The notes under the pieces are model-generated. The model searched no databases. It had not been told where the DNA came from and saw only the letters and a list, made by a program, of their open reading frames with translations. From assembly GCF_000337195.1 (NCBI RefSeq), contig NZ_AOID01000041.1:1-42503 (forward strand): 42,503 bases of DNA, given 5' to 3'. Below, piece after piece: positions 7,188-35,095 of the stretch; position 1 is the first letter of the stretch; every line of letters begins with the position of its first letter. The DNA comes from Natrinema versiforme JCM 10478 (GTDB taxonomy: Archaea > Halobacteriota > Halobacteria > Halobacteriales > Natrialbaceae). Position numbers and translations under genes: made by a program.

Positions 7188-7193
7188 GATAAA
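7188..7193 (-). promoter_or_regulatory. TATA box of the 2-oxoacid dehydrogenase operon
   Basis: TTTATC on the minus strand with a GGGAAA stretch upstream that could be the TFB-recognition element. Transcription should begin near 7165, giving a leader of about 20 bases before the GTG at 7145 and excluding the ATG at 7205. Confidence 0.5.
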
Positions 7194-12280: not shown

Positions 12281-13828
12281 ATGCAGACCGAGTTTGGGGT
12301 GGGTGGAGCGACAGCCGCGGTGCGGTCGGGGGGCGGGGCCATCGAAACGTGGACCGGCGCGACGGGGTGGACGGAGCGATCCGGCGCGGTGCTGTCGCTG
12401 GCGGACGATCCGACCGCGCTCGCGCTGATCGCGGCGGTGCTCGCGGTCGTCGGTGCCGCAGTCGTCGTCCGTGTTCGGTCCGGAACGGAAACCAACGGCT
12501 CCGACGCCACCGACCGCTCGAGCGGTGAATCGGCCGGGAGCGACATCGAGACCGAGCGCAGCCGCGAGACGGTCGCGGATCGGATCGGGGAGTCGACCCT
12601 CGAGCGACTCGAGCCGATCGTTCCCGACGCGGTCGACCGCGTCCACGAGGTCGCGTTCGACGACCGCGAGCCGGACCCGGCGGCGATCGATCGCGCCGAG
12701 CGCGACCTCCGCCGCGCGCTCGAGGACGCGCTCACCGACGGCCGATTCGACGCAGGTCTGACCGCGCCGGACGGCGAGCGTTACGAGATCGTGAACCTCC
12801 CGAGCCGGTACCGCGAACTCGCGGTGCCGCCGTCGGGGGAGACGGTCCACATCGGGTCGACGGAAGCAGCCGTCCGCGACCGGCTCGAGGACGGCACACT
12901 GCGGGAGGCGGCCGCGACCGCCGCGGCGGTCGACGACCACCGCGAGGAGATCCGTCAGTACGTTCGTCGCCGCGAGGGTGAGATCGTCGATCTGCGGGAC
13001 GAAATCGAAGCGACGTTAGACGATATCCGCGAACTGGTCGACCGCCTCGAGGGCTCGCTGGCCGATCGCGTCGACGACTTCGTGCTGTCGGGGCGACACG
13101 ACGAGGTCGAGGGCGTCGCCGAAATCGAACGCGACGTATCGGACGCGACGCGGTCGCTGCACCGCTGTTCGTTCGACGACGCGAAACGGGAGCTTCGGGA
13201 CGCCCGCGAGGCTGCCGACGAACTGCTCATCACCGTCGACCTCCTCGGCGGGCTGGTCGGGACGATCGAGCACGGCAGCGGCACGGTCGAGTTGCCGACT
13301 GCCGTCTCGACGGCGCTTGTGTCCGATCTCGTGCCGATCATCGAACGGCAGTACGACGTGGACGCGTCCGTCGAAGGGGACGCGATCGTCATTTCCGAAC
13401 GGAACGCGCTCGGCGGAGAAGGTGACACGACGGGAGCCGCGGGCGAGCCGGCGAGAGGCGGCGACGGGTCGTCGGCGCGCGAACGGACGCCGACCGGCGG
13501 GTCGACGGCCTCGGCGGGGACCAGAGACCGCGTCACGACCGAGTCAGTCGCCGACGAGATCCTGTTCGTCCTCCGGGAACTCGACGGCGACACCGGCGGC
13601 GACACCGTTCAGTGTCAGACCGAGCAACTCCCGACGGGCGTCGCGCAACCGGCCGTCCTCGAAGAACTGGCCACGTTCTGCCGGCGACAGACGGATATCG
13701 TCGCCGCGGTCGACCTGCAGGAGGGAGCGCCGCCGGGCTTTCTCGAGATCGAGTTCACCGATCGGACGACGCCGGCCGGCGGCCTCGAGACGCTGCGGGA
13801 GCGGTTCGCGGAGCGCCATGGCGGCTGA
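12281..13828 (+). CDS. Membrane-anchored coiled-coil protein, first gene of the tubulin cluster
   Basis: A 515-residue protein of unrecognised family. A single membrane segment lies at about 45-64, followed by basic residues, so the bulk is probably cytoplasmic. Residues about 120-215 form a compact domain. Residues 216-265 are a heptad-rich coiled coil (DLRDEIEATLDDIRELVDRL). After further helices, a Gly/Ser/Thr-rich linker at about 375-415 leads to a C-terminal alpha/beta segment (residues 425-515). The layout (TM, helices, small C-terminal domain) parallels the 696-residue protein at 20807. Lying just before a tubulin-like gene, it is a candidate membrane anchor or nucleator. Function is inference. 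Confidence 0.8.
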   Translation: MQTEFGVGGATAAVRSGGGAIETWTGATGWTERSGAVLSLADDPTALALIAAVLAVVGAAVVVRVRSGTETNGSDATDRSSGESAGSDIETERSRETVADRIGESTLERLEPIVPDAVDRVHEVAFDDREPDPAAIDRAERDLRRALEDALTDGRFDAGLTAPDGERYEIVNLPSRYRELAVPPSGETVHIGSTEAAVRDRLEDGTLREAAATAAAVDDHREEIRQYVRRREGEIVDLRDEIEATLDDIRELVDRLEGSLADRVDDFVLSGRHDEVEGVAEIERDVSDATRSLHRCSFDDAKRELRDAREAADELLITVDLLGGLVGTIEHGSGTVELPTAVSTALVSDLVPIIERQYDVDASVEGDAIVISERNALGGEGDTTGAAGEPARGGDGSSARERTPTGGSTASAGTRDRVTTESVADEILFVLRELDGDTGGDTVQCQTEQLPTGVAQPAVLEELATFCRRQTDIVAAVDLQEGAPPGFLEIEFTDRTTPAGGLETLRERFAERHGG

Positions 13829-14071: not shown

Positions 14072-15661
14072 ATGACGAATCTCTGTAAAATCTGTATGGC
14101 GCGGGAGGGGGAGTGGGAGCGGGCGACCCTCGTCGAGCACATTCGAGTCGCACACGGCGACGAACCGGCTTCGGTCGAACAGGTGTATCCGGAGCTGCGC
14201 GAGGAGGTCTTCGCCGCGGAGTCCGAGTCGGAACCGACCGACACCGGGCCCGAGTCGGGGACGCCGACGGAGACACCGAGCGAGGAGTTGCTCGACAGTT
14301 CGTACGGCAAGAAGTGGTTCCTCATCGGCGTCGGCGGCGCGGGCAACAACCTCCTCGACGCGATCTTGCTGCGCCGCGAGACGCTGTCCGAGAACAACGA
14401 GCGACGCGCGCGGATCTGGGAGGGCGGGCTCGCCGGCTACGGGGCGCTGAACACGAACGTCAGCGAACTCGAGCAGACCTACTACGCACAGGAGGAAAAC
14501 GACTACAGCCGTAACGACCTGCTGCCGAACTGTATCATCGGCTCGGGCCGGCACGATTACGCGGGGGCCGGCTACCGGTGGGACATCGGCAAACAGCTCA
14601 TGGAGGCCGATTTCGAGGGAGACGCTGACCCGTTCCGGGAACGGTGGGACATGCGGACCGATCACATCAAAGACTCCCAAGCGGTGATGTTCGTCCACAG
14701 CGTGACGAAAGGCACCGGCTGCGGCGCGACGCCGGTGCTCGCCGAGAAGCTCAGAACGGAGGTCCTCGCGGACGAGACGATCGTCCCGAAACCGCTCTTT
14801 AGCAGCGTCGTCATCCCGTCGGAGGGAACCGAGTACTCGGAGTACGGTGGCCGCGCGAAGGTAAACGGGGTCGTCGGGCTCGCACGTACCTCGAGAGCGG
14901 TCGACGCGATCATCCCCTTCGACAACAACCGCCTCGAGAACGTCCAGGCGGACATCCGCCCGCGGATCGACCGCCTCGAGGAGTACAACCCGCCGCAGTA
15001 CACGGAGATCAACCGGCCGCTCGTGGCGTTCCTCGAGGCGTTTACCATGTCGTCGGTGCCGCAGTTCCTCGACCGGGACGCGACGATGTCGATCATGGGC
15101 GACGTGTTCGACCCGGCCGACAGCTTCCGGCCGGTCGAAGACAAGTACCAGCTGAACCCGGACGTGTCGTTTACGCCGGCCGTGATCCTCGCGCCGGTGC
15201 TCGGGCGCTCGCGGGCGAATTCCATCGATCGATCCAAACTCGAGATCCTCGTCCGGAACGCACTGTTCCAGAACAAGCTGGCCGAGTTCGATCCGACGAC
15301 CGCGTGGGGCGGGACATTCCTGGCGTACGGGCCGCCCGAAAAGATGGACGACGTATCGGAGTTCGTCGCCGACGGGACGCTGACCGAGATCATCTCCGGC
15401 GAGGAGTTCCTCGACGCGGGCAACGTTTCGGGGATCGAAACCATCGATGTCCATGTCAAACAGCTCGTCACGCCCGATCTCGACGACGTTCACCTCTGGG
15501 GGACGCTATGGAACCCGAAGATGCCGTCGCTGTCGGACATGTACGATCAGGCCCAGCGCCTGAAACAGGAGGGCAGCACCGAGCAGGCCGAGAACGTCCG
15601 CGAGGAGTGGGACGCGGTCGAGGCGCTGTTTTCCTCTCTCGGCCGGGAGAACATGGGATAG
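14072..15661 (+). CDS. Tubulin/FtsZ-superfamily GTPase with N-terminal C2H2 zinc finger
   Basis: A 529-residue protein. Residues 5-28 form a C2H2-type finger (C5, C8, H23, H28), followed by an acidic linker (45-75). The GTPase part starts with GVGGAGNN (86-93, nucleotide loop) and ALNTN (125-129). The tubulin signature loop appears as TKGTGCGATP (212-221). FDNNRL (283-288) corresponds to the FtsZ guanine-side strand. A candidate catalytic T7 loop is VFDPADS (345-351). The C-terminus (about 380-529) matches the expected second domain plus a helical tail. It should bind GTP and polymerise. It is neither FtsZ nor CetZ, whose signatures are GGGTGTGA-like and have no zinc finger. It may belong to the divergent Tubulin_2-like family. 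Own promoter. Confidence 0.85.
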   Translation: MTNLCKICMAREGEWERATLVEHIRVAHGDEPASVEQVYPELREEVFAAESESEPTDTGPESGTPTETPSEELLDSSYGKKWFLIGVGGAGNNLLDAILLRRETLSENNERRARIWEGGLAGYGALNTNVSELEQTYYAQEENDYSRNDLLPNCIIGSGRHDYAGAGYRWDIGKQLMEADFEGDADPFRERWDMRTDHIKDSQAVMFVHSVTKGTGCGATPVLAEKLRTEVLADETIVPKPLFSSVVIPSEGTEYSEYGGRAKVNGVVGLARTSRAVDAIIPFDNNRLENVQADIRPRIDRLEEYNPPQYTEINRPLVAFLEAFTMSSVPQFLDRDATMSIMGDVFDPADSFRPVEDKYQLNPDVSFTPAVILAPVLGRSRANSIDRSKLEILVRNALFQNKLAEFDPTTAWGGTFLAYGPPEKMDDVSEFVADGTLTEIISGEEFLDAGNVSGIETIDVHVKQLVTPDLDDVHLWGTLWNPKMPSLSDMYDQAQRLKQEGSTEQAENVREEWDAVEALFSSLGRENMG

Positions 15662-15898: not shown

Positions 15899-17866
15899 AT
15901 GAGTGAGGACAACGGCCATCAGGCGAGTACCGCCGGAATCAACCCGCTCGACGGGGAGATCGTCCTCGAGAACGTCCACCCCTCGTGGATCAACTGGAAG
16001 TGGCGACTGTTCGGTTCGGTGCTGTTTCTCGTCGTCGGCCTCGGGGTCGACGGCGGTGGGAGGGGCGTGGTGATGGGGCTCGGCGTGTTGTTGTTCCTGA
16101 ACGTGTATTTCGCCCGAAAGCGGAGCCGGTACGTCGTCACGAACCAACGGATCAAGGGGAAAACGGGCCTGGTCGGCTCCTCGACGTTCGAGACCCGACT
16201 GGGGAACATCAACGGAATTTCGACCAACTCCGGTATCATCGAGGGACTGTTCGGCAAGGGAACGGTCCAGGTTACCGACGCGGCCGGCGAGCGGTTGCCT
16301 ATGAGCGGTATCGGCAACTACGAAGAACTCGCGCGGTCGCTTCGCGAGCAGCACCAACAGTCCATGCAGCCGGGACGCGGCGGCCGCGGAGCGACCGCCC
16401 GGTCCGGCCCGGCGGCAGGCCAACAGCGCGGGGGGCAAAGCACACAACAGCAGGAGCAGCAAGCTCCCGGAAACGGGGGAACCGAACCCCGATCCAACGA
16501 CCGATCGGCACCCGACCAGACCGAGACGGATACCGTGGAAAAGGACCGCTGTCTCGAGTGCGGGACCCGCGTCGATGCCGACGTGAGTTTCTGTCCGGAA
16601 TGCGGCGCGGACGATCCGTTTACGCCGTCGGAAACCGACGAGACGTCGGCTTCGACCCGCAGCGAGCCCGCGGCTGCTCCGGAACCGGGGCCCGAACCCG
16701 AACCGCGAAACCATCCAGTCACGACGATTGCCAACTCGATCGCAAACCGGCACCATCCGGACTCGAGCGCGGCGGCCGAACTCTGTCAGGCGTTAGCGGC
16801 CGAGGACGTGGACGAGCGACGGCTCGAGGATGCACTCGAGGACGCCGTCGAAACCCTCGAGACGACCGCGTCGGTGACCGACGCCGTCGAGGGAGTCGAC
16901 GACCCGTCCGAACGACGCCAACTCGAGTCCGCGCAGCGAGCCCTCGCCGGCGAGCGCGGGCGGCTTCCAGACGCGCTCGAGCCGATCGTCGATCGGACGC
17001 TCGCGCTCGGCGACGAACTCGACGCCTGCGAGCGCGACCGGGATCGGATACAAGAGGCGGCCGACGCGGCCTGTCGGGCGGCGAGCCAGAACGCGGACGT
17101 TCGATTGCGGAGCGACGATGTCGCCGATCGGACGGCACAGCTCGCCGAGACGATCGAAAGCGGCGAACTGGGCGACGACACGCCCGAGTCGACCGTGCCG
17201 TCGGTCGCCAGCGACCTCGAGCGCTCGGCCCGCCCGCAGTCGCCACAGTCCAGGGAGTTGCTCGAGACGCTGGGCGAATCGGCGTCGGACGACACCGCGT
17301 CGGTCCTGCAGTCGACGGTCGACTCGCTCGATGCGTACGCGGACTTGCAAGCGTCGATCGCTGACATCGGCGAGCGCGACGTTCGGCGGCGACTTGATGC
17401 CCTCGACGACGAACTCCAGCGGGCGGACGGCGACGTTTACCGCCACCTCGCGGACAGGGTTCGGGAACTCGAGGCGATGCTCGAGCGAGACGGCGTGACC
17501 GACGTGCAACTGTACGCGATCTATCAGGAGAGTACGTTCTACGATCGGACGCTGCTGCCGCGGCTGTCGCGGTCGCTCGACGGGGACACCGCGGCAGACA
17601 CCGGGCAGTTGATCGCCGATCTCGAGGCGCGGATCGACGAGATCGAGCGCGAGTACATCGATGTCCGGGCCGATCACAACCACACGATTCCGCGTCACTT
17701 CCTCTCGTTGGCCGACGACCTCCGGGCCGAGGCCCAGCGCGTCGACGGGGAGAGCCCGATGCGGGCGGTCGGTCTCTGCTCGGCGGCCGACGAGGTCCTC
17801 GGCCACGTCGAGGCGCTTTACGAACGAAACGAGTACAGCGTCATGCTCCGGCGGCTCCGCGGATAG
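15899..17866 (+). CDS. Membrane PH-domain, zinc-ribbon and coiled-coil protein
   Basis: A 655-residue protein. Two short membrane segments lie at 36-50 and 56-71. A bPH2-type domain follows at about 74-150 (SRYVVTNQRIKGKTGLVGSS, then TRLGNINGISTN). A Gln/Gly-rich linker leads to a zinc ribbon with C218, C221, C232 and C235 (CLECG, then CPECG). The remaining 400 residues are almost wholly helical and probably coiled coil. ATG 15899 is preferred over a GTG at 15830, whose extra residues look non-family. The N-terminal half resembles stand-alone PH proteins such as that at 8497. Between two tubulin-like genes, it is a plausible membrane scaffold for filaments. That role is inferred from context. 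Confidence 0.82.
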   Translation: MSEDNGHQASTAGINPLDGEIVLENVHPSWINWKWRLFGSVLFLVVGLGVDGGGRGVVMGLGVLLFLNVYFARKRSRYVVTNQRIKGKTGLVGSSTFETRLGNINGISTNSGIIEGLFGKGTVQVTDAAGERLPMSGIGNYEELARSLREQHQQSMQPGRGGRGATARSGPAAGQQRGGQSTQQQEQQAPGNGGTEPRSNDRSAPDQTETDTVEKDRCLECGTRVDADVSFCPECGADDPFTPSETDETSASTRSEPAAAPEPGPEPEPRNHPVTTIANSIANRHHPDSSAAAELCQALAAEDVDERRLEDALEDAVETLETTASVTDAVEGVDDPSERRQLESAQRALAGERGRLPDALEPIVDRTLALGDELDACERDRDRIQEAADAACRAASQNADVRLRSDDVADRTAQLAETIESGELGDDTPESTVPSVASDLERSARPQSPQSRELLETLGESASDDTASVLQSTVDSLDAYADLQASIADIGERDVRRRLDALDDELQRADGDVYRHLADRVRELEAMLERDGVTDVQLYAIYQESTFYDRTLLPRLSRSLDGDTAADTGQLIADLEARIDEIEREYIDVRADHNHTIPRHFLSLADDLRAEAQRVDGESPMRAVGLCSAADEVLGHVEALYERNEYSVMLRRLRG

Positions 17867-18151: not shown

Positions 18152-19531
18152 ATGACGTACCTGTTCGTTGGGGCCGGACAAGCGGGGGGTGCTATCGTCG
18201 ACTCGGTGTTCGATTACACCGACGATTCGCTGCTGGGGTTGTTCGATTCGGCCGACATTTCGACGCTGGGTCGGCCGCTGGTGTTCAATTCGACGATGCG
18301 GGACCTCCAGAACCTCTCAAACGTGCCGCCCGAAGATCAGTACGGAGTCGCAGAGCAACACGGGCTCGTCCAGGGGACCGAGCCCGGATTCGAGGAGATG
18401 GTGACCGGCGGGTTCGGTCGAAACCCGGTCGACGCCGACGAGGTGATGGCCGAGCACGCACCGCAGATCCAGACGATTCTCGGCGAGAAATTCGATCCCT
18501 CGTTCGCGAACGACGCCGGCGGTGCGGCGTTCGACGACGCACCCGAAGACGAGGTAGACGACCCGGTCGACGGCGACTCGCTCGAGGACGACGAGCCGGC
18601 CGGGACCGGTCCCGAGCCGGCGGTCGAACCGACGGGGTCGGGCGTGCAGTTCGCGTTCCTGTTCCTCGGACTCGGGGGCGGAACCGGCTGCGGGATCGGC
18701 CCGCACCTCGCCCGCGAGATCAAGGCGTTTACCGACGGTCGGACCAAGGTGGTCGCGGTTGCGGTGTTGCCGAACACGCAGAACGCGGACGCGGTCGGCG
18801 AGTCCGACGATGACGAAGATGACGTCAGCGCCGGCCGACAGGCGTGGAACGCCCGGTATGGCCTCGATCGGCTTGAGGACGAAGTGGACGGGATCGTGTT
18901 GGTCGACAACCAGCGCATCTCGTATCTCGACTCGGCGGGCGGCGAGTTCGGCGAGTACAACGAGTACGTCGCCGCGTCGATCTACGATCTCGTCGCCGGG
19001 CCGGTGTTGAGCGGGATCGACCCGAGCGCGGTCGACGGCATCGACACGCCGGATATCGACGTTCGGGACATCGTCACCTCGCTGTCGTTCGGCGTCGCCG
19101 GCGAGGAATCGGAGCCGGGCTACGCCGCGATCGGTCGCTCGGTGACGATGACACAGTCGCTGCCGGGCTATCTTCTGCCATTCGTCGGCAAACGCGACAT
19201 CGACAGCGCGGCGCTCTCGCGGCTGTCGGCGGCAAAGCAGACCCTCGCGAAGGCCGACGTCGAGGACGCCCAGAAGGCGATTTCGCTGATCAGGGCACCG
19301 AAGGCGAACCTCGGATCCGGCGGTCACAGCGTCGAAATCGGGACGGTCAAGCGATACCTCGAGGGGACCAGTAACCTGAGCGAGGTCAACCTCGGCGTCG
19401 CGATGAGCGATCGGAACCTCGCGTCGGTGACGACGCTGCTGACCTACCGCCGCGAGGACCTCGACCGGCTCGCGGATATCGAAGCGGCCGCCGAGGCCTA
19501 CGAAGCGGAAACGGAGGAGTTGCTTACATGA
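18152..19531 (+). CDS. Tubulin/FtsZ-superfamily GTPase, CetZ-like N-terminus
   Basis: A 459-residue protein, second of three superfamily members. The nucleotide loop VGAGQAGGAIVD begins at residue 6 and is close to the GFGQAGG start of CetZ. The signature loop is GLGGGTGCGIGP (173-184). A strand IVLVDNQRI (248-256) and a T7-like loop DIDVRDI (301-307), followed by GYAAIGRS, match the FtsZ/CetZ order and retain the catalytic acidic residues. Between the loops lies a very acidic insertion at about 121-162. Other CetZ hallmarks (NTDTA) are replaced by VFNSTMRDL, so it is not a standard CetZ. First gene of an eight-gene operon, with its stop overlapping the next start (ATGA). Polymerisation is predicted, not shown. 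Confidence 0.87.
   Translation: MTYLFVGAGQAGGAIVDSVFDYTDDSLLGLFDSADISTLGRPLVFNSTMRDLQNLSNVPPEDQYGVAEQHGLVQGTEPGFEEMVTGGFGRNPVDADEVMAEHAPQIQTILGEKFDPSFANDAGGAAFDDAPEDEVDDPVDGDSLEDDEPAGTGPEPAVEPTGSGVQFAFLFLGLGGGTGCGIGPHLAREIKAFTDGRTKVVAVAVLPNTQNADAVGESDDDEDDVSAGRQAWNARYGLDRLEDEVDGIVLVDNQRISYLDSAGGEFGEYNEYVAASIYDLVAGPVLSGIDPSAVDGIDTPDIDVRDIVTSLSFGVAGEESEPGYAAIGRSVTMTQSLPGYLLPFVGKRDIDSAALSRLSAAKQTLAKADVEDAQKAISLIRAPKANLGSGGHSVEIGTVKRYLEGTSNLSEVNLGVAMSDRNLASVTTLLTYRREDLDRLADIEAAAEAYEAETEELLT
19513..19519 (+). promoter_or_regulatory. Shine-Dalgarno for the 87-residue membrane protein
   Basis: GGAGGAG lies 8 bases before the ATG at 19528, inside the end of the preceding gene. It supports the overlapping start. 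Confidence 0.45.
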
Positions 19532-19791
19532 CGCGGCGGCGGGCTACGCTGTGCGTGCTCGTCCTCGTCGTCGTCCTCTGTGGACTCACGGCGACGGTCG
19601 CGGCGGACGAATCTGCCGTGGAAACGGCCATCGAGGAGACGAACGGAGCCGATACCGCGACATCGCTCGCGGAGCAAACGCTGCCGCTTGCGGCCGGCGG
19701 TGCGCTGCTCGGGCTCGGCCTCGGTGCCGCGGTCGCGAGCGGAATCACGTACTGGTACAAGAATCGGGAAATCGGGGGGCGACTGCAATGA
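19528..19791 (+). CDS. Small secreted/membrane protein with signal peptide and one TM
   Basis: An 87-residue protein. A Sec-type signal (residues 1-26, RRR followed by a leucine/valine core and an ATVAADE-like end) precedes a 25-residue external segment. A second hydrophobic, Gly/Ala-rich helix lies at about 53-72, followed by a short basic tail (WYKNREIGGRL) inside. It overlaps its neighbours by 4 bases at each end, so it is surely translated with them. No known family recognised. Such a tiny single-pass protein beside a filament GTPase may be a membrane tether; that is a guess from position. Confidence 0.72.
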   Translation: MTRRRATLCVLVLVVVLCGLTATVAADESAVETAIEETNGADTATSLAEQTLPLAAGGALLGLGLGAAVASGITYWYKNREIGGRLQ

Positions 19792-20810
19792 CGCCGACTC
19801 GAGTGCGACGAATGCTGCTTTTCGCGATTGTCGTGTGCGCGATACTCGCCGTCGGGTCGGGACCCGCCAGCGCGACCGCGGCCGACATCGACTGCCCCGG
19901 CACCGATTCGACCGTCGTCGGCGACATCGACGGCGAGTGGGTCGACGGCGAGGAACAGCTGTACGAGGGCTCGACGTTCGACATCGCCTACTGTAACGAC
20001 GGCTCGACCTACGAGGGCGACTGGCTGACCGACGATGGGGCCGACGGCTTCGAAATCCGCGACGAGCCGAGTTCGACAACCGAGGGTGTCTACACCGTTG
20101 CGATCACCGGCGAGGCCGGAACGACGGTCGCGTTCGACGACTACGTCACCCTCAACGACGTCGAGTCCGGGCTCACCGTGACCGTTGCGGGCGAACCCAC
20201 CGGCGAGGCGGCCCTCGCCGAACTCGAGGACGAGCACGCCGCCGAGTACCTCGAGGCCCGACGCTCGCTCGAAAACGCGACGACGGCACTGAACGAGACG
20301 ACCGCGGCACTCGAGGAGGGCGACGCGGATATCGCGGCCGCCGAAGAGGATCTAGATGAACTCAACACGACTTACGGAAATATGAACGATCGAGCGGACG
20401 CGCTGAATAGCTATCTGCTGGCAGAGGCGGAAGCCGGGAACGAAAGCGGTGCGATCGGCGCGCTCGCGGCGGTACAGGCGGATGCAAGCCAACAGCGCGA
20501 GGAGACGGACGACGCTGTCGAGCGATACCAAACCGCCGTCGAAACGGAGCGAAGTGCAGCTCAATCGACGGTCCGGATGACGACGCTGGGATCGCTCGCC
20601 GCCGGTCTCGTCGTCGGCGTGGCGGCGGGCGCGGCGGTTCCGCTGGTCGCGGCGCGGCGCGTCGAGGAGACGATGAAGCTGAGCCGAAACGTGTCCTACG
20701 ACCGGAAGACGGCGCTGGTGCCGATTCTGGTCGGGCTCGCTCTGGCCGTCGCCGGCGGTGCGTTGCTCGTCACCCTCGGCGGGGTCGAGCTACTGGAGGT
20801 GATCCGATGA
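19788..20810 (+). CDS. Signal-peptide protein with external coiled coil and two C-terminal TMs
   Basis: A 340-residue protein of unrecognised family. Signal peptide 1-30 is followed by a beta-rich external domain (35-135) with two cysteines (C36, C69) that could pair. A coiled coil covers about 140-260 with NxT/NxS glycosylation sites (NAT, NET). Two membrane helices lie at 264-288 and 308-330 with a basic cytoplasmic loop between them. ATG 19788 overlaps the previous stop by 4 bases; the frame is open further upstream but those residues have no signal-peptide character. It could present a surface sensor domain while its loop contacts the cytoplasmic proteins of the same operon. Confidence 0.8.
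   Translation: MTPTRVRRMLLFAIVVCAILAVGSGPASATAADIDCPGTDSTVVGDIDGEWVDGEEQLYEGSTFDIAYCNDGSTYEGDWLTDDGADGFEIRDEPSSTTEGVYTVAITGEAGTTVAFDDYVTLNDVESGLTVTVAGEPTGEAALAELEDEHAAEYLEARRSLENATTALNETTAALEEGDADIAAAEEDLDELNTTYGNMNDRADALNSYLLAEAEAGNESGAIGALAAVQADASQQREETDDAVERYQTAVETERSAAQSTVRMTTLGSLAAGLVVGVAAGAAVPLVAARRVEETMKLSRNVSYDRKTALVPILVGLALAVAGGALLVTLGGVELLEVIR
20795..20804 (+). promoter_or_regulatory. Perfect extended Shine-Dalgarno of the 696-residue protein
   Basis: GGAGGTGATC is the full complement of the archaeal 16S rRNA 3' end, placed just before the ATG at 20807 and within the preceding gene. It suggests strong translation of this internal cistron. Confidence 0.6.
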
Positions 20811-22897
20811 AATCGAACGCGAAGAGCGCGCTCGGGATCGGTGGACTGGTCGTGCTGGCGGCCGCGATCGGAGCGGGCGTCTTCGTCTTGAACGGGTCCG
20901 AAATCGCGGTCTGGTTCGTCATCGGCGGCATCCCGCTGATCATTGTCGGTGGGATCGCGCTGTATGTCCGCGGCGTCGTCTCCCGCAGCGGCACGAGCGA
21001 ACAGCAGTACGTCGAAAAGCGGGCGCGGGCCGTCGCACAGGACTTTCAAGAAACGGTCCGGGAACGAAACGACCTCCACACCGCGTACCCCGGGTGGGAG
21101 TTCACCGCGGACGCACAGTTCGAGTCGATCGCGGGCGATCTCCGGGCGGAGGGCGTCGCGTTCGACCTCGAGTCGGGCGCGTTCGACCTCACGAAGTCGG
21201 TCAAGAACGCCGACGTGCAGTCCTTCGAGGAGATCGCGGCCGAGATCGATCGCGTCGAGGAAGACGTCGAGACGGAGTTCCGGTCGTTCGCGACCGACGA
21301 ACTGTCCCGGATCGAGGACGCGCTCGACCGGCTCGAGGAGGTCGACCTCGTGGGCCGCGAGGCGGCGATCGACGAGCCGGCTCCGGACGCGGCCGTGCCG
21401 GCCTGTCGCGATTCGGTCGACGCCGCCAGAGCGACCGCGACGGAGACGATCGAGACGGCGATCGAAACCGTCCGCGAGATGGGGCGGGGCGACCAGCGGC
21501 CGGCCGACAGTGATGCGATCGAACGGGATCTGGAGGCGGCCGCCGACGCCGTCGGTCGCAACGAGTTCGGCGCGGCCGTCGAGTCGGTCCTCGAGGCGCG
21601 AGACCGGCTTCGCGATCAGTTCTCCGGCTCGTTCGACGCCGAGCGGGACGCGGTGTTGACGCTGGTCGACGCCGTCGAGGACGCCGGCGTGGCCGCACAC
21701 GTCGACGCCGAGTACATCGACGCGATCGACGAGGTCGAATCGGCCGTCACCGGCATGGATTCGGCGCTCGATCTGTCGGAGGTAAGCCGGCGTCGCGCCG
21801 ACCTCCGCCGGACCTGCGTCGACGTGGTCGCGGCGCTCGAGCGCACCCTCGCCGAGGAAGTTGAGCCGCTCCGAGACGCGGACCTGCCGCCCGGCTACTA
21901 CGCGGAGCCGGCGATCGCCGGCGAGACGTTCGTCGACGAACTCGAGGGGATCGACGACTTCGAGCGGTTCACCGAGCGGTGGCGGGAGGTCGCCGAATCG
22001 CTCGCCGACGCCGTCGGCACTGCAAGCACCAAGGCCGCCGTCGTGGGGGCCTACGACGATGTCGCCGAGACCATCGAAGCGGAACTCGAGGCGTCGGGAG
22101 AGGTCACCGACGACGACCTGCCGGTGCGAAACGCCGACGAGTTCCTCGGGCTCTACTACCGGCGCAACGAGGGGGTCGAACTCGATCCCGACGTCCCGGT
22201 TCTCCGACCTGGCGACGTCGAAACCCACGATCTCTCCGTCGACGTCGCCTACGAGCGAGGCGGCACGAAACGGACGGCGACGCTGTCGCTGTCGGGATCG
22301 GGGTACGACGAGACTGCGACCGTCGAGACGCGGGTCGCTGGATCGACGACGTTCGCGGACGTCCCGGCCGGCAGCTACGCGCTCGAGGCCGAGCCCGGCG
22401 ACGACGCGTTCGCACCGATCGAACGGGAGGTGCGGGTCGACGGCGGGACGACGATCGAGATCGAATTCAGCGAACAGAGTCTCCGCGAACGGGTCTGTGC
22501 GGACACCGATACGGACATGGGCGAGCACCTGTCGGAACTCCGCCCGCGCCTCGAGGAACTCTTCGAGGACGAGGGACACGTGTCGACGGCGATGGAGCTG
22601 CCGGTGCGGTCCGCACACGCCCCCTGCCTGCTCGCCGTGTGGGCCGAGACGGACGGCTACGACGCGACAGAGACCGGCGACGGCGAAATCGTCGTCTTCG
22701 AGCGCGATCAACTCGAGCGCGAACTGACCAACGTGGTCAGGTACAACCTCGAGCCGGGCGAGCGGCTTTCCTTCGACGACCTCGAGCGGAACTTCCTGAC
22801 GGCACCGGTCCCGCGGTCGGTGATTCGGGACGTGATCGCGGACCTGAGCGAGGAGCACAGCGTGACGACCAGCGGCGACGCGATCGAACTGAAGTAA
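20807..22897 (+). CDS. Two-TM protein with long helical region, Ig-like and C-terminal winged-helix-like domains
   Basis: A 696-residue protein. Two membrane helices lie at 10-30 and 37-56, and the rest is likely cytoplasmic. Residues 65-430 are mostly helical. A beta domain follows at about 470-565 (YERGGTKRTATLSLSGSGYD, then FADVPAGSYALEAEPG), like carboxypeptidase regulatory/Ig-type folds. The C-terminal 80 residues (LSFDDLERNFLTAPVPRSVI, then EEHSVTTSGDAIELK) resemble a winged helix. Its start is set by a perfect Shine-Dalgarno and a 4-base overlap. The TM-coil-small-domain layout parallels the 515-residue protein at 12281. It may be the main cytoplasmic adaptor between membrane and filaments; inferred from topology and position. 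Confidence 0.8.
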   Translation: MKSNAKSALGIGGLVVLAAAIGAGVFVLNGSEIAVWFVIGGIPLIIVGGIALYVRGVVSRSGTSEQQYVEKRARAVAQDFQETVRERNDLHTAYPGWEFTADAQFESIAGDLRAEGVAFDLESGAFDLTKSVKNADVQSFEEIAAEIDRVEEDVETEFRSFATDELSRIEDALDRLEEVDLVGREAAIDEPAPDAAVPACRDSVDAARATATETIETAIETVREMGRGDQRPADSDAIERDLEAAADAVGRNEFGAAVESVLEARDRLRDQFSGSFDAERDAVLTLVDAVEDAGVAAHVDAEYIDAIDEVESAVTGMDSALDLSEVSRRRADLRRTCVDVVAALERTLAEEVEPLRDADLPPGYYAEPAIAGETFVDELEGIDDFERFTERWREVAESLADAVGTASTKAAVVGAYDDVAETIEAELEASGEVTDDDLPVRNADEFLGLYYRRNEGVELDPDVPVLRPGDVETHDLSVDVAYERGGTKRTATLSLSGSGYDETATVETRVAGSTTFADVPAGSYALEAEPGDDAFAPIEREVRVDGGTTIEIEFSEQSLRERVCADTDTDMGEHLSELRPRLEELFEDEGHVSTAMELPVRSAHAPCLLAVWAETDGYDATETGDGEIVVFERDQLERELTNVVRYNLEPGERLSFDDLERNFLTAPVPRSVIRDVIADLSEEHSVTTSGDAIELK

Positions 22898-22900
22898 TCA

Positions 22901-24127
22901 ATGGGACAGACAGACACGTTTACGAGATGGAGCGTCATCGCCTCGGGAGAGGGTGGCGGACGCATCGCATCGCAGTTTTTCGACCGCACCGAGAACCCGG
23001 GCATCGACGACCGGATTCTGGTGATGAACACGAACAGAGCGGACCTGCGGAACACGATCGACCGGCTCCGGTCGAAACTGGGGGCCAGCGAAGAGGAGGA
23101 CGTGATCGAGTCCCACGCCCTCGAGTTCGGCTCCCAGCAGGGGGCGGGGAACTTCTTCCCGAACGGGGAGGCCTGCGCGCGGGAGGACCTCGATCGGATC
23201 GTCAACCGGATCACCGAGTTCGGGACGACCGACGCGTTCATGCACGTCGCGACGCTCGGCGGGGGAACCGGTAACGGCTCGATCCCCTACGTCGTCGACC
23301 AGTTCAAAGACGGGCTGCGCGACCTAGACGACGACAACGCCGCCGAGGAGTGGATGGACAGCGTGATCCACGCCGCCGTCGGCGTCTGGCCCTACTACTA
23401 CGAGCAGCCCCAGCGACACTTCAACGCGATCTGCGGGCTCTCGCGGCTGCTGCGGACCGACGACGACGAGCAAAACGCCGACATGGTGTTGCTCGCGTCG
23501 AACTCCCACCTCGACGACGACGAGACCGCCGCCGGCGACCAGTACGATTCGATCAACGACGCGATCATCACCGCGGTTGACCTGATGATCGGGGCCGGCC
23601 GGGAGACCCACAGCGTCATCGATATCAAGGATTACGTGACGATCCCGTCCCAGATGGACGCCTATCACTTCACGCCCGCCGTCGCGACGGACCTCAACGG
23701 CTCCGTCTACGAACTCGAGTACATGCTCGATCAGGCGGCCGAGGGGGCGTTCGTGCCGATGGACGTGGAGACGACGACGGCCGCCTACGCGATCGTTCGC
23801 GCGCCCGAGCAGATGATCGACGACGGGGAGATCACCGAACCGGACGTCTACGAGGCGTTCCGCGAGTGGACCGGGAAGAACAATATCAACGTCGCCGGGC
23901 AGGCGAGTCTCACGCCGAAACGCGGGCGCGGCAGCGACGTCGACGTGCTCCTGTTGCTCGGCGGCTTCGATCTGAACCCGCTGCTCGATCACTCGTGGGA
24001 CGACTTCGAGATGCTCGGCGACAGCCTCGCCGGCCAGTCCCGCGGCGGCGGCTCCGATCTGACGACCGCCCAACTCGACCGGATCGTCGACAACCTCGAG
24101 TCGTACGTCGAACGGAACGCGGAGTGA
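22901..24127 (+). CDS. Tubulin/FtsZ-superfamily GTPase, third divergent member
   Basis: A 408-residue protein. The nucleotide loop is SGEGGGRIASQF (15-26) and VMNTNRADL (41-49) replaces the NTD loop of FtsZ. The signature loop LGGGTGNGSIP is at 119-129. A strand ADMVLLASN (193-201) and a T7-like loop VIDIKDY (239-245) follow, keeping two aspartates where the catalytic pair sits. No zinc finger or long acidic insertion is present, so it is the most compact of the three. It begins 3 bases after the previous gene without a clear ribosome site. It presumably co-assembles or works in parallel with the protein from 18152. Substrate GTP and filament formation are predicted from the motifs only. Confidence 0.86.
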   Translation: MGQTDTFTRWSVIASGEGGGRIASQFFDRTENPGIDDRILVMNTNRADLRNTIDRLRSKLGASEEEDVIESHALEFGSQQGAGNFFPNGEACAREDLDRIVNRITEFGTTDAFMHVATLGGGTGNGSIPYVVDQFKDGLRDLDDDNAAEEWMDSVIHAAVGVWPYYYEQPQRHFNAICGLSRLLRTDDDEQNADMVLLASNSHLDDDETAAGDQYDSINDAIITAVDLMIGAGRETHSVIDIKDYVTIPSQMDAYHFTPAVATDLNGSVYELEYMLDQAAEGAFVPMDVETTTAAYAIVRAPEQMIDDGEITEPDVYEAFREWTGKNNINVAGQASLTPKRGRGSDVDVLLLLGGFDLNPLLDHSWDDFEMLGDSLAGQSRGGGSDLTTAQLDRIVDNLESYVERNAE

Positions 24128-24129: not shown

Positions 24130-27081
24130 ATGACGGGACTGACACTCGATCCCGACGCCCGTTCGACCGCCACCCGCGCGCTCGTCGCCCTCGTCCTCGC
24201 GCTCGCGGTCGCCGGTGCGACGGTCGCACCGGTGACAGCGGCAGCGACGGCCCAAGACGGCAACGGGGAGATCGGTATCGAGCGGACCAACGACTACCTC
24301 GAGGTCTCCCTCTCGGAGTTCGGCGACGACCGGCCCGAGGAGGTGACCCTCGAGGTCACCGCGGGCAACGAGAGCGCCTCGACGACCGGGAACAGCAGCG
24401 ACGGCTCGGCCGAGGTGGCGATCGCCGAACTGGCCGACGGGATCGGCCACGAGTCGCTGCGCGAGGCGGAGGTGACGGTCACGGCCGGCGATCAGACGGC
24501 GAACGAGACCCTCGACCTGCGTACGGTCGCGCTCGCGAACGACGTTCCGGTTCGGATCGACGGCGGCGACGAACCGCAGCTCGTGCTCCCGCTCGATCAA
24601 CGCGACACGGTCGGGATCACGGAAAGCGACACGGTCACGGTCTCCGCGGGCGGTTCCGAGACCGAGGCCGACGTCCGAGCGAACGGCACGCAACTCGCGA
24701 TCGACCAATCGTGGCTCGTCGGCGCGGTGGACCCCGGCGATGAAATCGACCTCGAGGCGTCCGTTGGCGACTGGGAACCGACGGAGCGAACCCTCGAGCC
24801 GGAACTCCGCGATATCGATACCGACCTCGTGCTCTGGCACCCGCTGGTCGAGACCGGCAGTCAGTACGACGTTGCGGCCGAGGACGACGGCGGGAACCGG
24901 TACGTGAACAACAGCATCGCTCCCGCTCGCCCCGGCGAGATCGACCTGCCATCGCTCTCGAGCGCGACCGACGTGAGCGTCAGCCTGTCGGCCGCGGACG
25001 GAGGCAACGCCTTCCTCGAGGACGAAACCCTCTCGCTCGCGGAACCGGCTCCGCTCTCCGCGACCGTCGTCGGTGACGGCTCGACGGTCGCGTTCGAGGA
25101 GAGCGTCGACGGACTCACGGTCTCGACCGTCATCGTCAACGAGAGCGATGGGTCTCTCGAGCAGTTCGCGCTCGAGAACGGGACGGTCGAGAACGGCGAA
25201 CTCGGCCTCGACGGGACGACGGTGACGGCAGACGACGAACTCCTGGTGGCGACCGATGCGGGACTCGCGAGAGTGACGCTCAGTGCCCCTGAATCCGGTA
25301 CCAACAGCGATTCCGCGGGCGCAGGCGGGCCACTCTCGCTACTGATCGACATCGGCAAGCTACTCACCCCACTGCTGATTCCGGGTCTCTTCGGACTCGC
25401 CGTCGGGTACGGTGCCTACCGGTTCCGCGACGAATGGAGCCGAGAACGGCTCAAACTGACCGGCCTCATCGCCGTCGGACCGGCGCTGGCGATCGCGATC
25501 ATACTCGTCGTCTTCCTCACCGGAGAGTTGACGTCCACGGCATTGTCGTCCTTCGACAAGACCATCGGTTTGCTACCCGTCGAAGTCGCGCCGTGGCCGC
25601 ACGTTATCTCCGGTTTTGGCGTCCTCCTCGGCGCGGCGCTGGCACCGGTGACCTACTACTTCCTCGGCGTTCCGGCCGGTGCCGACCGCCCGACCGGATT
25701 CACCGTCGATGTCTCCGTAACCGACGGGGAGCAGTCGCTGGGCGGCCGAACGGAGGTCTATTACCGGCGGGCGAACGTCGACGACCCGGAGACCGAGAGC
25801 ACGATGATCTCGAGCGGCGAGGGACGGGTCACGGTGCCGGATCGCGGCCCGTGGGAGGTCGTCGCGAAACACGACTCACACAGCTCCGATGTCGCCGACG
25901 TGACCAAGCGGAGTTCGAGCGCGACGCTTACCGTCTCATTCCCGGCAACGATCACGCTCGTCGACCGCGACGACGGCGAGCCGATCTCCGGTGCGACGAT
26001 CACGCGCGACGACGGGGCCACCGACACGACGAACGCGTCCGGCCGCGTCTCGCTCGAGCCCGGCGACGACGGCTCGAGCGTCGAGGTGGAGATCACTCAC
26101 GAGAAGTACGAGACCCGGACGGAGACGGTCTCGTTCACCCAGAACGGAGACCGAACGGTCAAGCTCGCGCCCCGGACCGGACGCGTGCGGCTGGTCTCCC
26201 GCGTCGACGGCGTTCGGACGCCGTCGATGGCGCTCCAACTGAGTCCGCGGGAGAAGGTGCTCGACGATCGGTACGGAACCGTCAGCATGACGACCGACCG
26301 CGACGGGGTCGCCACCCGCGACGGGCTCCTGATCGGACAGTACCGGGCCGCGATCGGTGCTCCGGAGAGACGCGAAAACCTGTTCGAGGGCGGGAAAACC
26401 GTCCTGACGGTGCGCGAAGACCGGTCGACGAAAGTCGAGGTCGACGCCCGCTTTACGTGGTCCCTGTCTTCGAGCCACCGGGACCGGATCGATCAGCTCC
26501 GACGCGAGGTCCGTGCCCTGTCCGACCACAGCGGGCGGGATACGACCATCCCGCGGTACTACGGCTCGGTCGTGACCGCGATCCTCGAGACGGTCGAATC
26601 ACTGCCCGACGCGGGCCATCGCTTCGCCCACAGCGAGGCGGAGCCCGACGCCGTCGCGGACGCGCTGCTTTCCGCCGCCGAGGCGGCGATCGACGCGATC
26701 AACGACGCGATGACGACCAAGCGGAACGTCGACCTCTTCGCGGCCTGCGCGGACATGCCCGATCCCGGCGTCGGCTGGGACGGCGAGTGCGACCTCGAGA
26801 CGGTCCTCGAGTGGCTCGAGGCCGACGCGATGAGCCGACGAAACACGCTCAAAGACCGGTACGAGAACGTCACGGCGCAGGTAGAGACCGAGCGCGAATC
26901 GGTCTCGGAGGCCGCACCCGCCGAGGAGATGCTGCGCCGCGCCTGGGAACTGGGCAGCGACGCCGGTCGCGGTGACGAGGCGATCGTCACCATCTACACC
27001 GCCCTGCTGTTGCTCGACGCGGTCGAGGCCGTGTTCGAGCGCGATCCCCTCCGCGACAGACTCTCACGGACGGTGTTCTAA
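24130..27081 (+). CDS. Large membrane protein: ectodomain, three TMs, cytoplasmic Ig-like repeats and helical end
   Basis: A 983-residue protein of unrecognised family. A signal peptide (about 1-42) precedes a beta-rich, acidic ectodomain to about 395. Three membrane helices lie near 400-432, 442-467 and 491-514. Next come Ig/carboxypeptidase-regulatory-like beta domains at about 520-780 (for example FPATITLVDRDDGEPISGAT, then TFTQNGDR-like strands). A helical region ends the protein. ATG 24130 is 2 bases after the previous stop; the reading frame continues upstream within the tubulin gene but that part is meaningless. It spans the envelope, so it may couple the surface layer to the cytoplasmic GTPases. 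No enzyme motif seen. Confidence 0.8.
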   Translation: MTGLTLDPDARSTATRALVALVLALAVAGATVAPVTAAATAQDGNGEIGIERTNDYLEVSLSEFGDDRPEEVTLEVTAGNESASTTGNSSDGSAEVAIAELADGIGHESLREAEVTVTAGDQTANETLDLRTVALANDVPVRIDGGDEPQLVLPLDQRDTVGITESDTVTVSAGGSETEADVRANGTQLAIDQSWLVGAVDPGDEIDLEASVGDWEPTERTLEPELRDIDTDLVLWHPLVETGSQYDVAAEDDGGNRYVNNSIAPARPGEIDLPSLSSATDVSVSLSAADGGNAFLEDETLSLAEPAPLSATVVGDGSTVAFEESVDGLTVSTVIVNESDGSLEQFALENGTVENGELGLDGTTVTADDELLVATDAGLARVTLSAPESGTNSDSAGAGGPLSLLIDIGKLLTPLLIPGLFGLAVGYGAYRFRDEWSRERLKLTGLIAVGPALAIAIILVVFLTGELTSTALSSFDKTIGLLPVEVAPWPHVISGFGVLLGAALAPVTYYFLGVPAGADRPTGFTVDVSVTDGEQSLGGRTEVYYRRANVDDPETESTMISSGEGRVTVPDRGPWEVVAKHDSHSSDVADVTKRSSSATLTVSFPATITLVDRDDGEPISGATITRDDGATDTTNASGRVSLEPGDDGSSVEVEITHEKYETRTETVSFTQNGDRTVKLAPRTGRVRLVSRVDGVRTPSMALQLSPREKVLDDRYGTVSMTTDRDGVATRDGLLIGQYRAAIGAPERRENLFEGGKTVLTVREDRSTKVEVDARFTWSLSSSHRDRIDQLRREVRALSDHSGRDTTIPRYYGSVVTAILETVESLPDAGHRFAHSEAEPDAVADALLSAAEAAIDAINDAMTTKRNVDLFAACADMPDPGVGWDGECDLETVLEWLEADAMSRRNTLKDRYENVTAQVETERESVSEAAPAEEMLRRAWELGSDAGRGDEAIVTIYTALLLLDAVEAVFERDPLRDRLSRTVF

Positions 27082-27084: not shown

Positions 27085-28080
27085 ATGCCCACACGATCTA
27101 CCCGACGGTCGATGCTACTCGCGGCGATACTCGTCGTCGCGACGGTCGCGACGGTACCCCTCTTCGGAGGGACCGCCGCCGCACAGGAGGAGAGCGCGAA
27201 CGACTACTTCGAGACGTTCCGCGGGATGGAGGGGACCGAGGCCTACCAGGAGTACGACGAACTCGAGACGGTCCGAACCTTCGCCGTGTCCCAGACGCAG
27301 GTGACCGGCGACCTCTCCGCCGACGAGCGCGCGGAGTTCGCGGCCGTCGCCGGCACCCTGCGGGCGTTCGACCGCGCTTACGTCCGCGCCGAAGACGGCG
27401 AGTACGAGGCGAGTCTCGCCGCCGCCGAGAACGTCAGCGAACATATCGACGACCTCGAGCAGTACGACCAGACGCAGGCGACGCTCGCCGGACTCGCGCT
27501 GACGCGGTTCTACGAGCGACTCGGCGACGGGCTCTACGAGGAGGCCGACGCCGTGAACCGAACGCCCGACCGGATCGAGCGCCTCGAGATGACCGCGACC
27601 GCCTACGAGCGGGCGGACATGCCCGACGAGGCGGCTCAGTTCCGAGTGCAGGCCGAGCAGTTGACCGCCGAGTACGAGCGCGACCGCGAGACCATCGCGA
27701 CCGCGCGCAACGCGACGGCGACCTTCGTCGAAGACTGCACCGATTGCGCGGACGTCCAGGCGGCCATCAGCGCAAACGGCCTCGAGACGTTCGCGGCCTA
27801 CGGGGAGGCACGAGCGACCGAAAGCCAGATTCGGGACGCCAGCGACCGCGCGGCGACCCACGGACTCACCGATCGAGAGGACGAACTGACCGCGATGGCC
27901 GACGACGTGACCGAGACCCGAACGACGCTCGCGATCGCCTCGAGCGCGGTGCTGGTCGGCTACGGGGTCGCCGTCGGACTGTTGGGAACGATCATCGTCG
28001 GACGGCTCTTCCTCTGGCGACGGACCTACGAGGCGTCGAGAGTCGGCTCGGTCGTCGCAGTGGGTGATAGCGATGTCTGA
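27085..28080 (+). CDS. Signal-peptide, helical ectodomain, single-TM protein
   Basis: A 331-residue protein. Signal peptide (1-33, ending GGTAAAQ) and an acidic, alpha-helical ectodomain of about 240 residues, including a cysteine pair in EDCTDCADV. One membrane helix lies at about 285-310, followed by a short cytoplasmic tail with RRTYEASR. The regular helix pattern with paired Ala/Tyr positions suggests a TPR-like or spectrin-like bundle. It begins 3 bases after the previous stop. The same topology recurs in the following 751-residue protein, whose helical part also precedes a C-terminal TM. They may be partners. Not a known family to me. Confidence 0.78.
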   Translation: MPTRSTRRSMLLAAILVVATVATVPLFGGTAAAQEESANDYFETFRGMEGTEAYQEYDELETVRTFAVSQTQVTGDLSADERAEFAAVAGTLRAFDRAYVRAEDGEYEASLAAAENVSEHIDDLEQYDQTQATLAGLALTRFYERLGDGLYEEADAVNRTPDRIERLEMTATAYERADMPDEAAQFRVQAEQLTAEYERDRETIATARNATATFVEDCTDCADVQAAISANGLETFAAYGEARATESQIRDASDRAATHGLTDREDELTAMADDVTETRTTLAIASSAVLVGYGVAVGLLGTIIVGRLFLWRRTYEASRVGSVVAVGDSDV

Positions 28081-33333: not shown

Positions 33334-35095
33334 CGCCCTCACCTCCGCTCGAGCCGGCGTCTTCGTCCGCCTCGTCGGGCTCCGAGATATCGATCTCGGC
33401 CATGTCCGAACTCGAGTCGTCCGTCGTTGCCGACCCCGAGGGCGGTTCGTCCGACGGCGTCGCGGTTCCGTCCGTCGGAGCCCCCTCCGCCGGCGTCGCG
33501 GCCCCGGCTGACGGGGCCGAATCGCCGCCGAGCAACTGGCCGAGCGAGGCTGGCTCCGAGCCGAGGCCCATTCCCAGCCGGTCGGCCTGCTCTTCAACGT
33601 AGCGTTTGAGTTCGGGGTAGCCCTCGAGGTCGTCGATCTGGGTCCGCACGCTCGCGACGTACTGGCGGATCGTCTTCGGCTCGGTCGCCTCGAGGCGCTC
33701 GAGGAAGTAGTCGGTGTCCGGTTCGATTGGCTCGCGATCGGGGAGGTGGACGCTCTCGACGAGTTCGCGCTGGAGGTCGCTTCCGAGGACGCGATCGGCG
33801 ATTTCGGCCGGGGTGTACCCCTTCGATTCGGCCCCGATGCGCTCGTAGTCGACCGCCGTCGTGCCAGTCATCGACGAGAGGTGCTTGCGCCAGACCTCGG
33901 CCATGACCGTCTCGTCGGGCTGGGGAATGAACTGCTGGATCGGGAACCGACGGGTCGCCGCCGGGTCGATGGTAAACGGCATGTTCGTCGCCCCGATCAC
34001 GAGCAGGTTGTCCTCGATCTCGTTCATCTCCTGGAGGAAGGCGTTAGTCAGCGACCGCTCGTGGCGCTGCAGGGAGTCGTCGCCGCGGTCCGGAATGAGG
34101 GTGTCGACCTCGTCGAAGAAGAGGACCGCGAAGCCGTCCTGTGCGATCCCGTGGGCCTTCTCGAAGATCGCCTCGACGCGTTTCTCCGACTCCCCCGAGT
34201 ACTTCGAGAGCACGTCGCTGCCCTTGATCTCGAGGAACTTGACCTCGCCGTAGCTCTCCTCGATGCGGGAGTTGAACTTCGCCTCGTAGGCGATCGCCTC
34301 CGAGATGAGCGTCTTCCCACAGCCCGGCGGCCCGTACAACAGCATGCTGTTGCCCCGCGAGGCGAACTCGTCGCCGTAGCGGTCGATGACCTCGTCGCGA
34401 ACGTCCGGATCGAACAGCGCGAGCAGGTTCTCCGCGGTCCGCTTGACCTCCGGGAGCCCGGCGACGTCCTCCTCGAAGCTGACGGTCGGCTTCTTCGGTT
34501 CGAGCGAGACCTGTACCTCCTCGTCGTTGCCGGCCCCCTCCTCGCCGGCCCCGCCGGGACCGGGGCCGCCGCGACTCGCCGCGTTTCTGGTCGCGCGAAG
34601 CTCCCGAAGTTCCCCGGCGTCGATGAACTCGAGGTCGGTGTTCGGCGTGACCCGCAGCGTCGCGTAGTCGGTCGGCTCCATCGCCGCGACTTCGAAGGTC
34701 GCCAACTCGTCGCCTTTCGGGACGACCTCTTCCATCGGGTGGAGCAGGTAGTCGTTCTCCCGGAGGAACGGCTCGAGGTCGTCTGGGACGATCTCGCTGG
34801 TGTGGATCTTCGCCGTGGAACACTCCACGACATCGCGTTTCGACACGTCCGAATCGACCAGGAAGTCCTTGCCCCGGTCGATACCACCGAACACGGTTTC
34901 GACGTTCTGGTGCATCCGGACCTTGTTCCCAATCCCATCGATGATCGAGTCGTCGACCGGTTCGACGTAGAAAAAGGCCCGCCTGTCGTTGTGGCGAATC
35001 TCGACGGTATTGGTGTTCGGTCCGACCTTCTTCGCTCCGATCTTGATCCGGGACGTCGGCTGATCTCGCTTCAGTATTGGCGTCAGGTTATGCAT
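33326..35095 (-). CDS. AAA ATPase with CDC48-N-like domain
   Basis: A 589-residue ATPase. Residues 1-160 look like a double-psi barrel N-domain: EVAAMEPTDYATLRVTPNT resembles the VVETDP-Y-V-P-T end of the CDC48 N-domain. A Gly-rich linker lies at 175-190. The single AAA domain follows, with Walker A GPPGCGKT (255-262), Walker B VLFFDEVD (324-331), sensor GATN (368-371) and arginine finger RR (382-383). A helical small domain and a disordered acidic tail complete it. No MIT domain and no second AAA ring, so it is neither Vps4 nor full CDC48. It overlaps its neighbours by 8 bases at each end. It should unfold or extract proteins, most simply those encoded beside it. Confidence 0.9.
   Translation of the reverse strand: MHNLTPILKRDQPTSRIKIGAKKVGPNTNTVEIRHNDRRAFFYVEPVDDSIIDGIGNKVRMHQNVETVFGGIDRGKDFLVDSDVSKRDVVECSTAKIHTSEIVPDDLEPFLRENDYLLHPMEEVVPKGDELATFEVAAMEPTDYATLRVTPNTDLEFIDAGELRELRATRNAASRGGPGPGGAGEEGAGNDEEVQVSLEPKKPTVSFEEDVAGLPEVKRTAENLLALFDPDVRDEVIDRYGDEFASRGNSMLLYGPPGCGKTLISEAIAYEAKFNSRIEESYGEVKFLEIKGSDVLSKYSGESEKRVEAIFEKAHGIAQDGFAVLFFDEVDTLIPDRGDDSLQRHERSLTNAFLQEMNEIEDNLLVIGATNMPFTIDPAATRRFPIQQFIPQPDETVMAEVWRKHLSSMTGTTAVDYERIGAESKGYTPAEIADRVLGSDLQRELVESVHLPDREPIEPDTDYFLERLEATEPKTIRQYVASVRTQIDDLEGYPELKRYVEEQADRLGMGLGSEPASLGQLLGGDSAPSAGAATPAEGAPTDGTATPSDEPPSGSATTDDSSSDMAEIDISEPDEADEDAGSSGGEGDE
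33338..33346 (-). promoter_or_regulatory. Shine-Dalgarno of the propeller/Ig gene
   Basis: GGAGGTGAG on the minus strand lies 4 bases before the ATG at 33333, inside the AAA gene, and supports that start. Confidence 0.45.

Follow-up and report, generated by a model that had tools for sequence, protein, structure and literature searches.

What kind of tubulin-superfamily (TSF) protein is encoded at positions 18152-19531 of the window (the whole 42,503-nucleotide stretch of Natrinema versiforme JCM 10478 DNA analysed here), and what might it do among its neighbors? An earlier sequence-only reading of this DNA placed a CetZ-like gene at exactly these coordinates and drew attention to its second nucleotide loop and to an acidic insertion. 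The protein is real, and the two features picked out are ordinary; the interest of the locus lies in its gene context, part of which has been published.

Identity and fold

The gene, designated T2, is a 459-aa open reading frame with an ATG start. It belongs to the tubulin superfamily (Pfam PF00091, E 1.5e-11, the only Pfam assignment), and an AlphaFold2 (AF2) model built with 28 orthologs (pLDDT 70, pTM 0.75) has the full two-domain TSF fold throughout. The nearest solved folds are the CetZ structures 3zid, 4b46, and 4b45 (Z of 37.2, 35.9, and 35.4), and FtsZ and tubulin structures score lower, at ~29–31. With a GTPase domain that includes the GGGTGxG loop, T2 is a CetZ-like TSF protein with a predicted GTPase function, as judged from sequence and model. 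Assignment to FtsZl1 was rejected, as T2 does not match the Tubulin_2 profile PF13809; the FtsZl1 architecture, an N-terminal TSF domain followed by a long coiled coil and a helical domain, is also absent, all of T2 being TSF fold. The PF13809 match elsewhere in the N. versiforme genome falls in a CetZ gene.

This genome contains nine TSF genes. Two encode FtsZ, three encode CetZ, and the remaining four are divergent; all four of these are on the contig that carries T2, and three of them (T1, T2, and T3) are in the window. The fourth, also CetZ-like, is just past the window at contig coordinates 46018–47166 (L011 8018–9166), outside the conserved block described below.

A conserved block of 16 genes

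The three TSF genes of the window are part of a block spanning 12281–38067, with the gene order A-T1-B-T2-c-D-E-T3-F-G-H followed by a convergent arm, L-K-J-AAA-I. Its features are as follows.

12281..13828 (+): A, membrane protein (1 TM, 45–63) with a coiled-coil region; conserved in the block
14072..15661 (+): T1, TSF protein with N-terminal CxxC..HxxxxH, T4 KGTGCG, and T7 FDxxDSF; PF00091 4e-12, motifs in 20/20 orthologs
15899..17866 (+): B, bacterial PH domain, zinc ribbon, and helical region; PF03703 8.1e-8, PF13240 2.3e-5
18152..19531 (+): T2, predicted TSF GTPase, 459 aa; PF00091 1.5e-11, AF2 pTM 0.75, 28 orthologs aligned
18503..18637 (+): acidic, predicted disordered loop of T2, residues 118–162, before the GGGTG loop; 16 D/E of 45, 0 K/R, pLDDT <50
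19528..19791 (+): c, small two-TM protein; open reading frame conserved in the block
19812..20810 (+): D, signal/TM protein with 3 hydrophobic segments; conserved in the block
20807..22897 (+): E, two N-terminal TM segments, helical and beta domains; also conserved outside Halobacteria
22901..24127 (+): T3, TSF protein with GGGTGNG and VIDxxDY intact; PF00091 4.2e-9, 21/21 orthologs
24130..27081 (+): F, multi-TM protein with 5 hydrophobic segments and a weak CarboxypepD_reg match (Ig-like/prealbumin-type); PF13620 1.1e-4, below cut-off
27112..28080 (+): G, signal and C-terminal TM protein; conserved in the block
28091..30328 (+): H, signal, weak matches to Ig-like domains (ASH/HYDIN type), and C-terminal TM; weak PF15780/PF22544, conserved outside Halobacteria
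30388..33333 (-): I, large PQQ-like beta-propeller protein; RefSeq name of the H. salinarum ortholog OE_RS12020
33326..35095 (-): AAA, single-AAA Cdc48/Vps4-type ATPase with a ~220-residue N-domain; PF00004 5.4e-32, VCP-like ATPase 5.4e-51
35088..35816 (-): J, helical protein just upstream of AAA, in the place of the published ESCRT-III/PspA-like gene; position compared with PMC10936438
35818..36876 (-): K, winged-helix-like N-terminal part and long helical hairpin; AF2 pTM 0.65
36949..38067 (-): L, promoter-proximal gene of the right arm; position as in PMC10936438

Gene order and strand are kept in 20 of the 22 haloarchaeal genomes whose neighborhoods were compared, and in the same set the genes flanking 12281–38067 are shared by close kin only. 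T2 orthologs are present in 15/125 genomes of Natrialbaceae, and a T2 match is present in 45/391 genomes of the class, five of these being weak and fitting other TSF proteins. The block occurs in 17 named-genome loci, and all ten that were examined (10 kb each side) hold T1, T2, and T3. It is plasmid-borne in Halobacterium salinarum R1 (PHS2, OE_RS12000 to OE_RS12075, followed by an ISH8-type transposase) and in Natrinema, T2 is present on three Halobaculum plasmids, and the block is also chromosomal, e.g. in Halovenus salina and H. walsbyi. In R1, gene order and profile matches point to OE_RS12070 as T1, OE_RS12060 as T2, OE_RS12040 as T3, and OE_RS12015 as AAA. The distribution is patchy and the cassette is mobile. 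Halobaculum G378 has a second copy (L092, C2 9000–28000), apparently on an H. halobium plasmid, in which T1 and T2 are each in two frames and apparently decaying, with an intact copy alongside.

Nucleotide loops of T2 and its paralogs

The motifs GxGQAG, NSTxRDL, TGGFGRxP, GGGTGCG, and DNxR are invariant in the 28 aligned T2 orthologs, and loops T1–T4, T6, and T7 (loop numbers, not to be confused with the gene names) are all intact and invariant in this set. Loop 1 of T2, VGAGQAGGAIVD, is CetZ-like and follows the pattern GxGQAGG, and a CetZ of the same genome reads IGFGQAGGKIVD. Loop 2 is NSTMRDL, following the pattern N[ST]xxxDL, and the family form NSTxRDL is present in 28/28 orthologs. The proposal that the usual NTDTA loop is missing was therefore misleading: comparison with the CetZ and FtsZ proteins of the same genome shows that canonical CetZ itself has VN[ST]AxxDL and not NTDTA, and NSTxRDL is a close variant of this form, so that loop 2 is not missing.

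Loop 1 and the segment DIDVRDI had both been taken to fit the CetZ pattern. This holds for loop 1. DIDVRDI does align with the T7 loop of FtsZ and CetZ, and its two aspartates, D303 and D306, are invariant in 28/28 orthologs, but the family pattern DxxD (28/28) differs from the VVDSSE (in one case VVDASE) of the canonical CetZ proteins sampled, and is closer to the DFAD of FtsZ. The catalytic loops are intact in 28/28 orthologs, yet an intact motif set is no proof of polymerisation.

T1 is distinguished by a CxxC..HxxxxH motif of the C2H2 zinc-finger type and by an altered T4 loop, KGTGCG, both present in 20/20 orthologs. The notion that T1 is without T7 acidic residues was rejected, as FDxxDSF is invariant in the superfamily alignment.

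The acidic loop

The insertion of about 40 very acidic residues before the signature loop is real, corresponding to residues 118–162, which contain 16 D/E in 45 residues and no K/R (T2 as a whole is 18% D/E). In the predicted structure it is a surface loop that connects helix 104–122 with the strand ahead of the GGGTG loop, and it forms the longest segment of low confidence in the model (pLDDT <50). It is not a family trait, as its length varies among orthologs from ~9 to 102 residues and is reduced to ~9–13 residues in several, and its sequence identity is far lower than in the remainder of the protein. The variable length and low identity indicate a drifting loop that is not diagnostic of the T2 family, and we interpret the stretch as a disordered loop at the protein surface that has no conserved role; its acidity may reflect salt adaptation. 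The insertion is absent from canonical CetZ, so the result that would have told against the earlier reading, a T2 placed firmly inside CetZ with an insertion that ordinary CetZ proteins share, was not obtained; the insertion is not common to all T2 orthologs either, and lends no support to T2 being an early branch or a partner subunit.

Phylogenetic placement

In the best tree T1, T2, and T3 form separate clades, each with 100/100 support and each outside canonical CetZ. T1 and T3 group together at 87/84, and the branch that separates the three jointly from the rest has a support of only 76/63. The tree program flagged long branches in the TSF tree, and a topology uniting T2 with CetZ as its sister is not rejected (p-AU 0.33). 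The distinctness of the three clades is firm and the deep branching order is not; the suggestion that T2 is an early branch is compatible with its place outside canonical CetZ. CetZ1 and CetZ2 of Haloferax volcanii (Brown and Duggin 2023, PMC9856176) share the fold and the loop 1 and loop 2 patterns with T2, but T2 differs in T7 (DxxD as opposed to DSSE), in having only 21–23% identity over the structural alignment, in falling outside the canonical clade, and in gene context.

Santana-Molina et al. (2023, PMC9871819) describe, in the available text, a Halo.Tub group with quasi-tandem copies, and this may be the T1/T2/T3 trio, likened here by description and not by sequence; that text describes neither a system nor an ESCRT link for Halo.Tub.

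The ESCRT-like arm and the Halo_adaptin system

Makarova et al. (2024, PMC10936438) reported Halo_adaptin ESCRT loci in Halobacteriales. As given in the available text, their ATPase has VAT-N and no MIT, and a PspA/ESCRT-III-like gene lies upstream of it. The loci further encode a winged helix fused to a coiled coil, and their proximal gene carries a duplicated winged helix; a CetZ-like protein, membrane proteins, and beta-propeller/Ig proteins are also present, and H. walsbyi is among the named carriers. Genes AAA, J, K, L, and I and the tubulins of our block appear to agree with that account in order and in described domains, the match being by description and not by accession: a single-AAA Vps4/Cdc48-like ATPase (PF00004 is found once, and the VCP-like model scores 5.4e-51), a putative winged-helix/coiled-coil protein, membrane proteins, a beta-propeller protein (I, from the PQQ name of its ortholog), and CetZ-related proteins (T1–T3) occupy one locus. 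H. walsbyi is a carrier in both, its left arm lying in the stretch compared here (L121). The difference is that the available account has one CetZ-related protein, whereas the block studied here has three distinct TSF families and two accessory modules and is linked to FtsZl1.

The reported VAT-N and PspA similarities were not reproduced here with HMMER. The profile of the AAA N-domain has no match at a significant E-value among solved structures, that of J, the helical gene in the ESCRT-III/PspA-like position, has no meaningful match in the PDB, and the Snf7 profile has no match in the block. The AF2 model of K has a winged-helix-like order of elements and a long helical hairpin, as read from its secondary structure without a fold match. 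Identification of K as ESCRT-III is not supported, there being no Snf7 match, no Pfam support, and no Foldseek match at E <0.001; the Z scores of K (up to 11.4) are only to unrelated helical proteins, in a range common for helical bundles. An ESCRT-III identity of J or K was thus not confirmed by profile or structure comparison. A katanin/spastin-like severing function for AAA was rejected, its best matches being Cdc48/VCP.

The ESCRT-like arm is present in 20/20 genomes with T1 and absent from both genomes without it (p ~0.004, phylogeny ignored); in two carriers it lies away from the block, elsewhere in the genome (G139) or on another contig (G310). The two genomes without T1, G158 and G160, have no T1 match at 1e-10, no A or B in the region compared, and no K genome-wide, and they keep T2, T3, D–H, and I but not the ATPase arm. 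This suggests a minimal version of the cassette, and the arm is accordingly not strictly required by T2 and T3. A search of 16 genomes picked for absence of the cassette gave no K. New here are the three co-conserved tubulins, one of them with a zinc-finger motif, the joint absence of T1 and the ESCRT-like arm from two genomes, and loci bridging to FtsZl1.

Loci bridging to FtsZl1

FtsZl1 (Tubulin_2) was proposed by Makarova and Koonin (2010, PMC2875224) as part of a predicted membrane-remodelling system. It resembles T2 in being a divergent TSF protein encoded in operons of membrane proteins, and T2 differs in having no PF13809 match and no coiled-coil extension and in keeping T6–T7. Profiles from iterated searches mixed T1, T2, and T3 (~77 matches each), and the bridging loci were scored with pure ortholog profiles. 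In other archaea, homologs of E, F, G, and H are encoded next to FtsZl1 or to tubulins resembling T2 and T3. In G486, which is not haloarchaeal, a T2-like protein and homologs of E, G, and H surround an 863-aa FtsZl1 protein (PF13809 3.6e-27); G187, a haloarchaeal genome, has homologs of A, T1, B, and I adjoining its FtsZl1, and G652 has T3, E, F, G, and H together with a Cdc48-type ATPase. The available published descriptions of these systems contain no statement that we found linking the 16-gene block to the FtsZl1 system.

In the G486 locus (L229/L230, joined 18516–23710) FtsZl1 has a long coiled coil and its operon mate is a shortened T2-like protein with a degraded GGGTG motif (GLGGEIGG). 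Conjugation-type genes (TrbL_3, TraG-like) near the FtsZl1 and T1 locus of G187 (L239 2005–6231) suggest mobility. In G652 (L226 5868–9697) the neighbors of a two-AAA Cdc48-type ATPase, as read from sequence, are a TolB-like propeller, a helical protein, and two proteins with coiled coils. This set may be an analog of the J-K-L-I arm; the profiles of I, J, K, and L match none of its proteins.

A proposed tubulin-ESCRT cassette

Tubulin-type and ESCRT-type machines are commonly viewed as alternative routes to membrane reshaping. A conserved cassette encoding three dissimilar tubulins along with a Cdc48/Vps4-like ATPase and numerous envelope proteins makes their cooperation testable, and directly so in the laboratory strain Halobacterium salinarum R1, where it is carried by plasmid PHS2. 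Such cooperation would also provide a biological role for the 'non-canonical' archaeal tubulins, which surveys have until now listed without function.

We favor, with a probability of about 0.6, the reading that T2 is a polymerisation-competent CetZ-like GTPase, one of three co-conserved paralogs of a discrete cassette that would combine filaments with an ESCRT-like membrane machine. T2 and T3, with the zinc-finger protein T1 as a specialised subunit, would form GTP-dependent filaments beside the cytoplasmic membrane, and the membrane proteins A and D–H, with the PH-domain protein B, would keep them in place. AAA, the Cdc48/Vps4-like ATPase, together with the putative ESCRT-like proteins J-K-L and the beta-propeller I, would remodel or disassemble this assembly and so drive membrane shaping, budding, or sorting. 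Starting from the family, the intact catalytic loops, the conserved block, and two genomes that lack T1 and the ESCRT arm together, we infer polymerisation, hetero-assembly, membrane attachment, and the order of action; T2 may assemble jointly with its neighboring paralogs T1 and T3. A further and more tentative proposal, which we think somewhat doubtful, is that T1, T2, and T3 constitute a three-subunit cytoskeleton working physically with the ESCRT-like Vps4 module and sharing descent with FtsZl1, such that two separately described systems are one lineage.

The sequence-only reading had offered T2 as a partner unable to polymerise alone, and a version in which T2 regulates another tubulin and is itself kept from assembling by the acidic insert would be in keeping with the two adjoining TSF paralogs and with the position of the insert before the T4 loop. 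There is no positive support for it, however; the catalytic and T7 residues are all invariant, and since the insert is down to ~9–13 residues in several orthologs it cannot underlie a conserved block of assembly, so this remains an unlikely account. About equally unlikely is the idea that T2 is one more CetZ for cell shape or motility, like CetZ1/CetZ2, with incidental neighbors. CetZ structures are its closest solved relatives, it has CetZ-type loops 1 and 2, and the sister topology is not rejected, but the best tree puts T2 outside canonical CetZ, T7 is DxxD and not DSSE/DASE, three canonical CetZ genes are already present in the same genome, and the linkage of T2 to 15 other genes is fixed.

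We give least credence to a plasmid-maintenance (TubZ-like) or defence system on mobile DNA, to which the patchy and partly plasmid-borne distribution, a score of the AAA ATPase against the IetA defence profile, and the conjugation-type genes close to the G187 relative might point. The products are mostly membrane proteins and the cassette is also found in chromosomes, including those of Halovenus salina and H. walsbyi. The IetA match is confined to the AAA domain; for the remaining proteins tested PADLOC gave either nothing or weak coiled-coil matches, and with matches of these kinds only, the defence reading was rejected.

Other features of the window

A tRNA-Leu called by ARAGORN at 20100–20184 (-) is probably false: the call falls within the coding sequence of D, and Rfam gives no match for it at gathering score. 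To the left of the block, at 1819–8327 (-), are genes that read from sequence as dehydrogenase/lipoyl-transferase complex-like, including a lipoyl-synthase-like gene at 7359–8327.
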